Shown piece after piece: positions 41,146-44,925 of a stretch of 64,000 nucleotides of DNA; within the stretch, counting starts at the first letter, position 1; the number at the start of each line of letters is the position of its first letter. The notes beneath the pieces are model-generated. The model ran no database searches. It saw only the letters and a program-made list of their open reading frames with translations, and was not told the DNA's origin. The stretch is from Paraglaciecola sp. T6c (GTDB lineage Bacteria; Pseudomonadota; Gammaproteobacteria; Enterobacterales; Alteromonadaceae), in assembly GCF_000014225.1 (NCBI RefSeq), contig NC_008228.1, forward strand, positions 2,480,001 to 2,544,000, given 5' to 3'. Position numbers and translations under genes: made by a program.

Positions 41146-41486
41146 AATTTCACCTATTGAATCGTGTGATAAGGTGCAAAGCAGCCCTATCTGTAACCGA
41201 ATGCGCGGAGTATAGAATACTATTGCGAGCAAATCAAAAAAAACCTTTTATTTCATATAGATAGATAATAGAAATGAGAATAATTGATGATTGTATCTTG
41301 ATTCTTAACCGCGCAGAAAACGTGGCTAAAATGATACAGTCGACACTCCGTTCAGTGTCGTTAATCAGCAAGTATAATAGCAGTGGTGTCGTAAGACAGC
41401 ATAGTCGGGAATAAAATCACACAACGCCATATTTACTTGCCTTAATGAGTAACTTGCTGATGAGTGCAGAAATTTAAATTAAATGT
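41146..41486. other. Intergenic region upstream of the bacterioferritin and SigX-module genes
   Basis: It holds the divergent promoters. A sequence at 41264-41282 starting GATAAT matches the 19-base Fur consensus at about 12 positions and could bind Fur. A seven-pair hairpin lies at 41341-41360, and ten-base inverted repeats (ATCAGCAAGT 41364-41373, ACTTGCTGAT 41452-41461) bracket 78 bases. No small gene is convincing. Confidence 0.35.
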
Positions 41487-41516
41487 GTGACTTTTTAGCG
41501 TCGCACTTCGTCCAAT
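41487..41516 (+). promoter_or_regulatory. Candidate SigX-type ECF promoter of the cfrX-cmpX-sigX operon
   Basis: GTGACTTTTT (41487-41496) and CGTCCAAT (41509-41516) are separated so that GTGAC and CGTC are 17 bases apart, as in two further copies at 43369 and 43713. CGTC at -10 is typical of ECF sigma factors. It precedes the operon that encodes the sigma factor, implying autoregulation. Confidence 0.65.
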
Positions 41517-41618
41517 ATATAATACATCGCCTCTAGCGCTTATCTGGAAAGTGTTACACGTTCCTAGTTGGGATCTGTTCGGGTGATAAAGTGTACATCT
41601 GCACGTAGGAGAAAATAC

Positions 41619-41852
41619 ATGAGTGATGATGAATATAAAGCACTTGAGCGTCAGCTTGCTAAAGGTGCATTGACCAATCAAGTGCTTCCAGAGCCTGAGG
41701 CCATGGCAGCGAAAGTGGTGAAGCACGATAAATCAAAAGAACTCGTGCGCTTAGGCGTGCATGGTGTTTTCTCTATGTTGTTAACGCTCTTTGCCCCACT
41801 GATGATGAGCCACAGTAAAAAACTATTAAAGAAAAAGGTTAAACCTCAATGA
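41619..41852 (+). CDS. Small protein of the SigX module, CfrX-like
   Basis: 77 residues from ATG 41619 (MSDDEYKALERQLAKGAL), chosen because TAGGAGA stands before it; the longer frame from 41568 lacks a site. A polar N-terminus is followed by one hydrophobic segment (VRLGVHGVFSMLLTLFAPLMM) and a Lys-rich tail. By position it matches CfrX of Pseudomonas (the gene before cmpX-sigX-oprF), a small protein of unknown role. Its stop overlaps the channel gene by four bases (ATGA). Confidence 0.65.
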   Translation: MSDDEYKALERQLAKGALTNQVLPEPEAMAAKVVKHDKSKELVRLGVHGVFSMLLTLFAPLMMSHSKKLLKKKVKPQ

Positions 41853-42679
41853 AAGAGAATATTAGTATTTGGTTTGAAGCGGTGTCGGGCTCCCTTGCAG
41901 CGCTGCTAGAAGAAATCGCCGCATTCATCCCTTCGTTATTTGCAGCACTCGTCATTCTGCTTGTGGGCTATTTTATATCACGGGTTTTGCGCTTCGCAGT
42001 CTTTGCAGTATTGAATAAAGTGGGCCTAGACAAATTAGCGAAGGCCACTGGTATAGATCAGCAGTTGACCAAGTTTGGTAAAGACGTGTCTGTATCTAGC
42101 ACACTCGCCATGTTGGTATTTTGGATTACTTTTTTGGTCTTTATCGTAACCGCCGCAGATTCATTAGGCTTATCACAATTGGGCGAAACGATGGATCAGT
42201 TCCTACGTTTTATTCCTAAAATCATTGCTGCCACGTTAATCCTGCTTTTTGGACTTGCGGCTGCCAACTTAATTAAAAACGCTATTTTCAATGCCGCCAA
42301 AGCCGCAGAGTTTGATTTCGCTCGGCCGTTGTCAAAAGCGGCATATGGATTGGTCGCTATTTTAACCTTGTCTTTGACTATCAATCAGCTTGATATTGAC
42401 ACTGTGATACTGGATACGATCATCGCCATTGCCCTTGCGACGCTAGGGGTTGGTACTGCTATCTCGTTAGGTTTAGGAAGCCGTGAAGCTTCGCAGAACA
42501 TTATTTACTCTTTATATATATCAGACACGGTCAAAGTTGGAGATACCGTCACTACAAAGGACGGTATTAAGGGCAACGTGGTAGAGATTACGGCCGTGGT
42601 CACCATTATTCGTACATCGGACGAAAGCCTAAAAGTAATTGATAACAAAGTGTTTTTGGACGGACTGACCATACATTAA
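41849..42679 (+). CDS. cmpX: Small mechanosensitive channel-like protein, CmpX-like
   Basis: 276 residues with four to five transmembrane segments and repeated conserved-TM-helix motifs (PF05552) around IPSLFAALVILLVGYFISRVL and IPKIIAATLILLFGLAAANLI, ending in an MscS-like domain (ALATLGVGTAISLGLGSREASQNIIYSLYISDTVKVGD). It matches CmpX of Pseudomonas, where it adjoins sigX. It may sense envelope tension and influence SigX activity. It is coupled to the small gene before it, and 23 bases precede sigX. Confidence 0.85.
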   Translation: MKENISIWFEAVSGSLAALLEEIAAFIPSLFAALVILLVGYFISRVLRFAVFAVLNKVGLDKLAKATGIDQQLTKFGKDVSVSSTLAMLVFWITFLVFIVTAADSLGLSQLGETMDQFLRFIPKIIAATLILLFGLAAANLIKNAIFNAAKAAEFDFARPLSKAAYGLVAILTLSLTINQLDIDTVILDTIIAIALATLGVGTAISLGLGSREASQNIIYSLYISDTVKVGDTVTTKDGIKGNVVEITAVVTIIRTSDESLKVIDNKVFLDGLTIH

Positions 42680-42702
42680 GCCTGATGTAGCGGTTAATTA
42701 AT

Positions 42703-43233
42703 GTGCATGACTTAACGGATGTTCAACTAGTAAAACGTACTTTGCAACGCCGCGGCGATGCATCGATGGCCTTTGCTAAGCTGTATGGACGATATCAAGG
42801 GAAAATCGCCGCTTATATTGCAGCGAAGGTTCTGTACAACTCGTCGTTAGTAGACGATGTACTGCAAGACACCTTCATGACTGCATGGCACAAGCTAGAG
42901 CAACTCAAAGAGCATGATAAGTTTTTTCCTTGGGTGGTTACCATCGCGCGTAACACCGCTATGGATGTATTACGTGAAAAAAAGCGCGTAGACGATATCA
43001 GTCATCTGTTAAATCAAGAAGAGTCCGAAACCGAGGAAGAGCTCGACCTTGGAGCAACTGAACAAATGCTCGCAAGCTTGGAGCCCCTAGACCGGGAAAT
43101 AGTGGTCATGAAAGCGATACTAGAGTGCTCATTTGACGAAATAAGCTTGCAGTTAGGTTTAGCGTTAAGTGCCAGTAAGATGCGCTATTATCGCGCACTC
43201 GACAAAGTGAAAAGCGATTTATCCCAGCAGTGA
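42703..43233 (+). CDS. sigX: ECF sigma factor, SigX-like
   Basis: 176 residues of the ECF sigma-70 group: region 2 (AFAKLYGRYQGKIAAYI, VDDVLQDTFMTAWHKL, FPWVVTIARNTAMDVLR) and region 4 (LASLEPLDREIVVMKAI, SFDEISLQLGLALSASKMRYYRALDKVK). The GTG start at 42703 gives the usual N-terminus. There is no anti-sigma gene beside it, which fits SigX of Pseudomonas, where CmpX and membrane state act instead. The same promoter-like motif is found before its operon, before the LapA-domain gene and before the porin. Confidence 0.85.
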   Translation: MHDLTDVQLVKRTLQRRGDASMAFAKLYGRYQGKIAAYIAAKVLYNSSLVDDVLQDTFMTAWHKLEQLKEHDKFFPWVVTIARNTAMDVLREKKRVDDISHLLNQEESETEEELDLGATEQMLASLEPLDREIVVMKAILECSFDEISLQLGLALSASKMRYYRALDKVKSDLSQQ

Positions 43234-43368
43234 CATCTGCCTTCATAAGACCCATCACCATTAAGCAAAGTCATAATATTATGAACATTGATTAATAATT
43301 TTCGCTGTTTATAACTTCCTCCATTAATAACCCCTCTGTTCATAAACCTCTGCATTTACATTGAATTT

Positions 43369-43398
43369 GTGACTTTTTGGTTACAACCAGCGTCTATT
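43369..43398 (+). promoter_or_regulatory. Candidate SigX-type promoter of the LapA-domain gene
   Basis: GTGACTTTTT at 43369-43378 and CGTCTATT at 43391-43398, with 17 bases between GTGAC and CGTC. The element is 95 bases before the gene start counted from CAGCGTCTATT at 43388. Next to the start codon there is also a 7-base-arm hairpin (43437-43443 with 43451-43457). Confidence 0.65.
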
Positions 43399-43482
43399 TC
43401 TCAAAGCAGGTTAACAGCAAGGGTATATAGAAACCTTTGCGCGACGTTAACGCGCAATATTGACTAGCACAGGAGTGATTCA

Positions 43483-43701
43483 GTGAATTTATTCAAAGGC
43501 CATTTTAAACGCAACACTTACATAGTGTTGGTCGTCCTATTTGCCATATTTGTGTTGCAAAATATGCAGTTAGATTATGTATCTTTTCTCTTTTGGGATT
43601 TTGCGATGCCGCGATTACTTTTAATTTTAAGCACGCTGCTTGTCGGCATTATTATAGGGGCCCTCGTTCCATTTAGAAAATTACTGCCCCAGAAAAAATA
43701 A
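43483..43701 (+). CDS. LapA-domain (DUF1049) membrane protein
   Basis: 72 residues with two transmembrane helices and the LapA/DUF1049 pattern (VLVVLFAIFVLQNMQLDYVSFLFWDFAMPRLLLIL...LVGIIIGALVPF). LapA proteins act with LapB in lipopolysaccharide assembly at the inner membrane, but many short relatives have unknown roles. It is a separate gene with its own SigX-type promoter, placed between sigX and the porin where Pseudomonas has no gene. Confidence 0.8.
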   Translation: MNLFKGHFKRNTYIVLVVLFAIFVLQNMQLDYVSFLFWDFAMPRLLLILSTLLVGIIIGALVPFRKLLPQKK

Positions 43702-43712
43702 ACGGCAATTCA

Positions 43713-43741
43713 GTGACTTTTTTGAATAGGCAGCGTCTATT
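43713..43741 (+). promoter_or_regulatory. Candidate SigX-type promoter of the OprF-like porin
   Basis: GTGACTTTTT (43713-43722, six Ts in all) and CGTCTATT (43734-43741), with 16 bases between GTGAC and CGTC. CAGCGTCTATT begins 94 bases before the porin start, almost the same distance as in the previous copy. Confidence 0.65.
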
Positions 43742-43824: not shown

Positions 43825-44925
43825 ATGAAAAAACACACGCTAGCAGTAGCCATTTCTTGTGCCTTGATTGGCGCAACTGCTCACGCTCAATCATCATCTG
43901 AAAAAGAGATTTGGGGCGGCGTATTTGGTGAGTATTACTCAGTTTATCCTGACAAATTTGAGCCTAACACTGATTATGACAGTGGGTTAGGCTGGGGCGG
44001 CGAAATTGGAGTTAAACTAAATCCAGATTGGGGTTTTCGTTTTGAAGTGGCTAAGTTAGACATAGATGCCGACACAGGTAATGGCAACATAACCGGTGAG
44101 CGTATCGGTGTAGATGCGATGTACTTCATCAATCAGAGCAACTATTACATTTTTGGTGGTCTGAAAAACCAGCGCTTTGACGAAAGCTACCGTATGGCTG
44201 ATCTAGGTTTAGGTGCCCATTGGCAGTTGAACGACAAATGGAAAGTGATCACCGAACTTGCAGGGTACTATGACTTTGGTCAAGGTAACCCTGAGTACAG
44301 CGCCAAACTTGGTTTAGCGTATAGTTTTGGTAAAACCGGTGGTAAGCGAGTCAGTAAAGATTCAGATAACGATGGTGTCATTGACCAACGCGATTTATGC
44401 CCAAATACACCTTATGGAACAAGCGTTGATGTTGATGGTTGCCCGATGACAGCGGTTGATAGCGACAATGATGGTGTAATCGATGCCAAAGATGCGTGTG
44501 CTAACACGCCAATGAACGACAAAGTAGATGACAAAGGTTGCAGTATTTTCACTGAAGAGTCTAAAACAATGTCGCTAAAAATTATGTTCGACAATAATTC
44601 AAGTAAGTTGAAGAATATTGATAGTGCTAGCGTGCAAGAGTTTGTTGATTTTATGCGCCGTTACGGAACAACCAACGCTGTAATAGAAGGTTACGCTTCA
44701 GCGCCAGGCACGGATGCATACAATATGAAATTGTCAGTTGAGCGAGCACAAAATGTTCGTCAATATCTAGTCGCTCAGTACAACATTGCTGGCTCGCGCT
44801 TAGAAGCAGTCGGCTACGGTGAAACGAAATTATTGGACTCGGCCAATACCCGAGAAGCGCATCAGAAAAACCGTCGTATAGAAGCTTATGTCACAGCAAC
44901 GGTCAAGATTGCAGTATCAAAATAA
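43825..44925 (+). CDS. OprF/OmpA family outer-membrane porin
   Basis: 366 residues: signal peptide (MKKHTLAVAISCALIGATAHA), an eight-strand beta-barrel to about residue 170, two calcium-binding thrombospondin type 3-like repeats (DSDNDGVIDQRDLCPNTP and DSDNDGVIDAKDACANTP), and a peptidoglycan-binding OmpA domain (VIEGYASAPGTDAYNMKLSVERAQNVR, VGYGETKLL). It links outer membrane and cell wall. Position downstream of sigX is the same as oprF in Pseudomonas. Confidence 0.93.
   Translation: MKKHTLAVAISCALIGATAHAQSSSEKEIWGGVFGEYYSVYPDKFEPNTDYDSGLGWGGEIGVKLNPDWGFRFEVAKLDIDADTGNGNITGERIGVDAMYFINQSNYYIFGGLKNQRFDESYRMADLGLGAHWQLNDKWKVITELAGYYDFGQGNPEYSAKLGLAYSFGKTGGKRVSKDSDNDGVIDQRDLCPNTPYGTSVDVDGCPMTAVDSDNDGVIDAKDACANTPMNDKVDDKGCSIFTEESKTMSLKIMFDNNSSKLKNIDSASVQEFVDFMRRYGTTNAVIEGYASAPGTDAYNMKLSVERAQNVRQYLVAQYNIAGSRLEAVGYGETKLLDSANTREAHQKNRRIEAYVTATVKIAVSK

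Follow-up and report, generated by a model that had tools for sequence, protein, structure and literature searches.

Candidate SigX-type promoters and a predicted envelope and cation-stress regulon around an ECF sigma module of Paraglaciecola sp. T6c

Genes and promoter-like elements of the module

The window, i.e., the whole stretch of 64,000 nucleotides analysed here, contains an operon of a small gene, cmpX and an ECF sigma gene, followed by lapA and oprF. Three promoter-like elements precede these units, and a degraded fourth points the other way:

41395..41420, - strand: degraded remnant of a putative divergent SigX-type promoter, -35 and -10 each changed
41487..41512, + strand: candidate SigX-type promoter of the small gene-cmpX-sigma operon, GTGACT-N16-CGTC, kept in 8 of 8 loci
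41619..41852, + strand: small protein of 77 aa in the CfrX position (proposed anti-sigma)
41849..42679, + strand: CmpX-like mechanosensitive channel (MS_channel_1st_1, MS_channel_2nd; 35 percent identity to the CmpX of genome G238)
42703..43233, + strand: SigX-like ECF sigma factor (Sigma70_r2, Sigma70_r4_2; region 4.2 LSASKMR)
43369..43394, + strand: candidate SigX-type promoter of lapA, GTGACT-N16-CGTC, conserved in relatives
43483..43701, + strand: LapA-domain membrane protein of 72 aa (PF06305 at 26.6 bits, just below the 28-bit cut-off)
43713..43737, + strand: candidate SigX-type promoter of oprF, spacer N15 in the window vs N16 in 7 relatives
43825..44925, + strand: OprF/OmpA-type outer membrane protein (matches to OprF, OMP_b-brl, TSP_3 and OmpA)

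The initial annotation had reported three copies of one ECF-type motif ahead of the operon, lapA and oprF, and all three lie where it placed them, on the + strand, with GTGACT-to-CGTC spacers of 16, 16 and 15 bases, respectively. The distances it gave for a box in the latter two copies were likewise exact: CAGCGTCTATT is present twice in the window, at 43388, 95 bases upstream of the lapA GTG (43483), and at 43731, 94 bases upstream of the oprF ATG (43825). A -10 of the form CGTC is common among ECF sigmas. The loose pattern GTGAC-N14-20-CGTC matched 5 times in 64 kb vs 1.5 expected, a count attained by 1 of 100 shuffles, and GTGACT-N16-CGTC, which leaves the N15 copy at oprF out of the count, matched twice vs 0.06 expected (0 of 100 shuffles). 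Scanning with the family matrix at a score of at least 13 returned no window sites beyond these three, a partly circular result, as the sites at 41487 and 43369 are among the matrix members.

Alignment of the three promoters over eight loci (the window, L041-L045, L047 and L048) revealed that GTGACT and CGTC are invariant in all 24 orthologous copies, whereas the mean identity across the same copies was 0.52-0.57 in the spacer and 0.37-0.53 in the flanks. The spacer measured 16 bases in 23 of the 24; the window oprF copy is the sole case of N15. Since L042 and L043 are a close pair, as are the window and L041, the independent lineages number fewer than eight. As read from these alignments, the conservation is strong evidence for the reality of the elements.

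Paraglaciecola mesophila KMM 241 is a close relative of the host, with a sigma 98 percent identical. In the P. mesophila locus L041 (5529-6030), about 250 extra bases separate the sigma gene from lapA in comparison with the window; by eye this stretch has the look of an inner inverted repeat and may represent a small repeat or mobile insertion. Locus L043 lies on a contig labelled as an uncultured Colwellia metagenome-assembled genome, but carries the Paraglaciecola module, whose promoters there hardly differ from those of P. chathamensis (L042), and the bin label looks wrong.

The fourth, divergent element is intact in 7 relatives, on the opposite strand ahead of the small gene, and faces a CNNM-type gene in all six relatives examined, a set to which L043 does not belong; the CNNM assignment comes from an HMM run on L041 (PF01595, 122 bits). 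In the window, no CNNM gene is found in this one place, the stretch (41149-41618) that separates the small gene from the two bacterioferritin genes, and the distance from the bacterioferritin genes to the small gene is about 470 bases vs an estimated 1.65-1.9 kb in relatives. A role of the divergent element as a bacterioferritin promoter was ruled out because the CNNM gene intervenes in the six relatives examined.

Distribution of the element across Paraglaciecola

At a threshold of E 1e-20, 7 of 22 Paraglaciecola genomes were positive for the sigma. The strict pattern GTGACTWWW-N12/13-CGTCHA, searched in all 22, matched 5, 5, 6, 5, 8, 5 and 6 times in the sigma-bearing genomes (40 in total; 9 for the reversed-pattern control) vs 0-3 times in each of the 15 genomes without it (19 in total; control 14). 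The two groups differ with p about 1e-4 (Mann-Whitney), and with p 0.0036 when only matches outside the module are counted. Two looser patterns gave 56 and 40 matches in the 7 sigma genomes vs 37 and 21 in the 15 lacking it, while a control with N14/N15 spacing yielded 0-2 matches per genome in both groups.

The 40 strict matches of the sigma-bearing genomes split into 21 in the module and 19 outside it, and the latter fall before mgtE (7), rimK (7) and gss (4), with one within a reading frame. The element points towards the gene in each unit of the module as well as at mgtE, rimK and gss, and at rimK it stands only 28-31 bases from the start. One representative of each kind was checked against family models, the remaining genes being named by evident likeness: RimK scored 458 bits (cut-off 331), MgtE scored 200.6 bits, below the NCBIfam cut-off of 232.75 and above two Pfam cut-offs, and Gss scored 873.7 bits, just below 882, with a sequence that ended at the edge of the fetched stretch. 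A whole-genome search was suggested in the initial annotation; the strict pattern, run here over 22 genomes, brings up mgtE, rimK and gss as recurring candidate targets at a distance.

Of the 7 sigma-bearing genomes, 5 yielded a gss gene, in each case with the element ahead of it; the fifth promoter (G067) carries a C after GTGACTTT and was hence missed by the strict pattern. In contrast, the 7 gss genes of genomes without this sigma gave no match to GTG[AT]C-N15-18-[CT]GTC-N-A within 520 bases. Farther upstream, G068 and G069 have a GTGTC variant ahead of a same-strand gene run that includes gss. Paraglaciecola sp. T6c itself yielded no gss, neither near 3.46 Mb nor genome-wide. Its match at G000:C1:218898, which lies inside a maf-like gene, ends in CGTCTC and has look-alike matches in relatives, was set aside as probably coding.

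We examined 12 of the 19 strict matches in genomes without the sigma: 7 lie inside reading frames, 3 before mgtE-like genes (G060, G068, G074), 1 before an AstE-like gene and 1 is intergenic. Both G060 and G068, which have the mgtE-type motif but not this sigma, carry a sister sigma. The AstE-like gene with the element belongs to G074, where it stands back to back with mgtE, and two back-to-back SigX-type elements occupy the stretch between the two genes (L100 on contig G074:C68, 569-639). Searches of G074 gave no match to the sigma at E 1e-20 or to CmpX at E 1e-8, and the sigma that reads these elements possibly lies in a gap.

Identity of the sigma and SigX loci beyond the module

By its domains the window sigma belongs to the ECF group (PF04542, 46.8 bits; PF08281, 41.6 bits; TIGR02937, 67.9 vs a cut-off of 42.9). 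SigX (NF007222) is its best-scoring NCBIfam model, yet with 89.9 vs a curated cut-off of 194 bits. In the tree it sits on a long branch placed outside SigX (89/87); a constrained tree uniting the two in one clade was not rejected (p 0.36-0.38). When 369 genomes of the class were searched with a profile of the sigma alignment (E 1e-20), the own genome alone matched. The motif LSxxKMR occurs in all 22 rows labelled SigX-A, SigX-B, SigX or SigX-like and in just 2 of 28 other ECF rows, both of which fall within the SigX-B clade. Region 4.2 reads the -35, so that a common LSxxKMR fits the shared GTGAC -35.

As far as domain matches go, cmpX and oprF are linked to the window sigma as expected of Pseudomonas SigX, and the window CmpX is nearest, among those compared, to the CmpX of G238 and G001 (35-36 percent). 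The 77-aa small protein had no match in Pfam or NCBIfam, each at E 0.01. Homology to CfrX was not detectable, with an hhalign probability of 0.5-1 percent; the outcome was the same after removal of a wrongly called frame (L143) and of the G001 protein from the CfrX alignment. This test is a weak one, in that the corresponding small protein of G001 (L123, 5091-6250), which accompanies a curated SigX, reaches just 6 percent, and profile comparison does not identify it as CfrX either. Because even this partner of a curated SigX escapes the CfrX profile, the small partner protein of SigX seems to be fast-changing.

The family of G238 we take to be Pseudomonadaceae, because of scores far above the curated SigX cut-off and the gene order cmaX-cfrX-cmpX-sigX-oprF, read by eye in G238. 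Of 59 genomes searched in this family, 51 matched, and the sigX loci of the best 30 were taken; GTGAC-N16-18-CGTC, mostly N17, stands ahead of cfrX in 29 of these 30, the single exception having TGTC instead of CGTC. The remainder of those loci gave 3 matches in 202 kb on both strands, and shuffled upstream stretches gave 0.24 matches per set of 30. The -35 and -10 of the window equal those at cfrX of the curated sigX loci. The consensus, which the initial annotation had called self-defined, is not confined to this locus: an almost identical element stands before the sigX operon in these 29 loci, and further members of the window's own family have it too. Ahead of oprF, which P. aeruginosa SigX is known to target, no such element was found in the same 30 loci, unlike in the window. 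In one locus (L131, 3276-3301, - strand), the element predicts a start near cfrX, which differs from the -208 reported for P. aeruginosa cfrX in a passage of PMC7641640.

SigX-B modules (Paraglaciecola G060, G068, G069 and G071; G023 and G046 of the same family) share the small protein-CmpX-sigma operon with the window, but their CmpX is just 29-30 percent identical, their small protein can be recognised as CfrX (hhalign 92 percent) and their sigma groups with SigX in the tree. The -10 of the four Paraglaciecola loci is also looser than that of the window. The relaxed pattern GTGACY-N15-17-[CTA]GTC[CT]A matched 19 times in eight loci, with 18 matches in the six family loci (L118-L121, L172-L173), the other two loci (L174, L175) being from distant class members and L175 giving no match. 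All 19 lie outside long reading frames; one, at 3834 of L121, falls on the first base of a called frame. In G046 (L173), the operon and an OmpA-family gene are each preceded by one element, as in the window, and in G068 and G069 one element faces a CNNM gene (HMM run on G069 only). The loci L118-L121 often have two elements pointing apart in one intergenic stretch, with -10 forms TGTC, AGTC and CGTC. Both distant class members have an LSxxKMR sigma next to rimK, and one of them has an element before a CNNM/CorC gene (L174, 15295). The pairing of such a sigma with rimK, noted in two gammaproteobacteria (L125, 2114-3937; L126, 1493-3615), gives the impression that SigX-type control of rimK is ancient.

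Predicted regulon and comparison with known systems

It is highly probable that the SigX-like ECF sigma encoded at 42703-43233 reads the three elements as promoters: the -35 GTGAC(T) and the -10 CGTC are fixed, 16 (rarely 15) bases apart after GTGACT, and the set co-occurs with the sigma. Counting against it are the low SigX score of the sigma and its place in the best tree, the small protein with its undetectable CfrX likeness, the elements at mgtE-like genes of G060, G068 and G074, the missing element ahead of oprF in the G238 family and the additional loose-pattern matches in the sigma-bearing genomes. That they are real ECF promoters read by another ECF sigma, with the local one reading something else, we consider unlikely, even though Paraglaciecola sp. 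T6c has at least one further ECF-like gene (G000:C1:1972957) and the CGTC -10 is widespread in this group. The motif sets track the presence of this sigma across the genus, the sigma gene sits in the operon behind the motif, and its recognition helix matches that of SigX proteins with the same element ahead of their operons. Still less probable is a transcription factor operator in place of a promoter; the evidence here comes from sequence, and two blocks about 16 bases apart would also suit a bound site, but the orientation towards the gene in the module units and at mgtE, rimK and gss, the fixed spacing with a nearly empty N14/N15 control, the resemblance of the blocks to a -35 and a -10 and the short start distance at rimK speak for a promoter. 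Chance or low-complexity resemblance, conceivable in AT-rich intergenic DNA that readily yields GTGAC plus a T-run, deserves next to no weight, as it is already refuted by the footprint (blocks unchanged in all 24 promoters although the flanks have diverged) and disagrees with the excess in the window and with the orthologous distant targets. Operator and chance origins were thus set aside on footprint, spacing and orientation.

With the SigX-like sigma as the reader of the elements, the whole is best read as a divergent SigX-type, autoregulated regulon for envelope and cation stress. The initial annotation had predicted an autoregulated local regulon. On comparative grounds, an ECF-type autoregulated set of a SigX-like module is supported, while "local" is not, given that mgtE, rimK, gss and the CNNM gene of relatives appear to be included. 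In such a scheme, the small protein and CmpX would keep the sigma inactive, and membrane or osmotic stress would free it, as proposed for Pseudomonas SigX. The freed sigma would amplify its own operon and raise the OprF-like porin, LapA, magnesium transport (MgtE, CNNM), RimK (ribosomal S6 glutamylation) and Gss (glutathionylspermidine metabolism). The element would thereby link a mechanosensing SigX module to magnesium, ribosome-modification and polyamine-glutathione genes, and with a footprinted element of exact spacing the direct targets become a short, testable list.

More broadly, and with some caution, we favour the view that a SigX superfamily widespread in Gammaproteobacteria may recognise GTGAC-N17-CGTC, with this specificity tied to the LSxxKMR helix. 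The regulon so defined (own operon, OprF-type porin, magnesium transport of the MgtE/CNNM/CorA type, RimK and Gss) would be a response to membrane tension and cations that was kept while the sigma, its small partner and CmpX diverged beyond easy recognition. For P. aeruginosa, a passage of PMC7641640 calls the SigX-dependent promoter consensus not precisely defined, and at SigX-induced fatty-acid operons no discernible consensus was detected in PMC3875570; hundreds of genes are credited to SigX in PMC4362757, in which a SigX logo was derived and given as a figure, so that the consensus may partly be in print for Pseudomonas already. In the accessible portions of the literature on Paraglaciecola or Alteromonas sigma factors, we found no description for this organism group, and those on ECF102 promoters, SigX motifs, cfrX, and SigX with rimK or mgtE did not describe the consensus or the regulon.

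Among known systems, the SigX system of P. aeruginosa (cmaX-cfrX-cmpX, sigX, oprF; ECF102) shares with the window the order small protein-CmpX-sigma-OprF and autoregulation, which for the window is predicted. Passages on that system report that membrane stiffening raises sigX mRNA (PMC7641640), that SigX controls cfrX-cmpX (PMC10965496) and that all alternative sigmas studied in this species are autoregulated (PMC4362757), and a mechanosensing complex of CfrX, CmpX and OprF was proposed (PMC8999054). The window differs from it by a far diverged sigma, a small protein not recognisable as CfrX and an inserted lapA with its own putative promoter. Acinetobacter SigAb, with an ECF promoter, a CGTT -10 and a small autoregulated regulon, and Bacillus subtilis SigX, with an ECF promoter and a CGWC -10, are similar as outlined in a section of PMC12153292, whereas their -35 elements, GTCAAC and TGTAAC, respectively, differ from the GTGAC found here.
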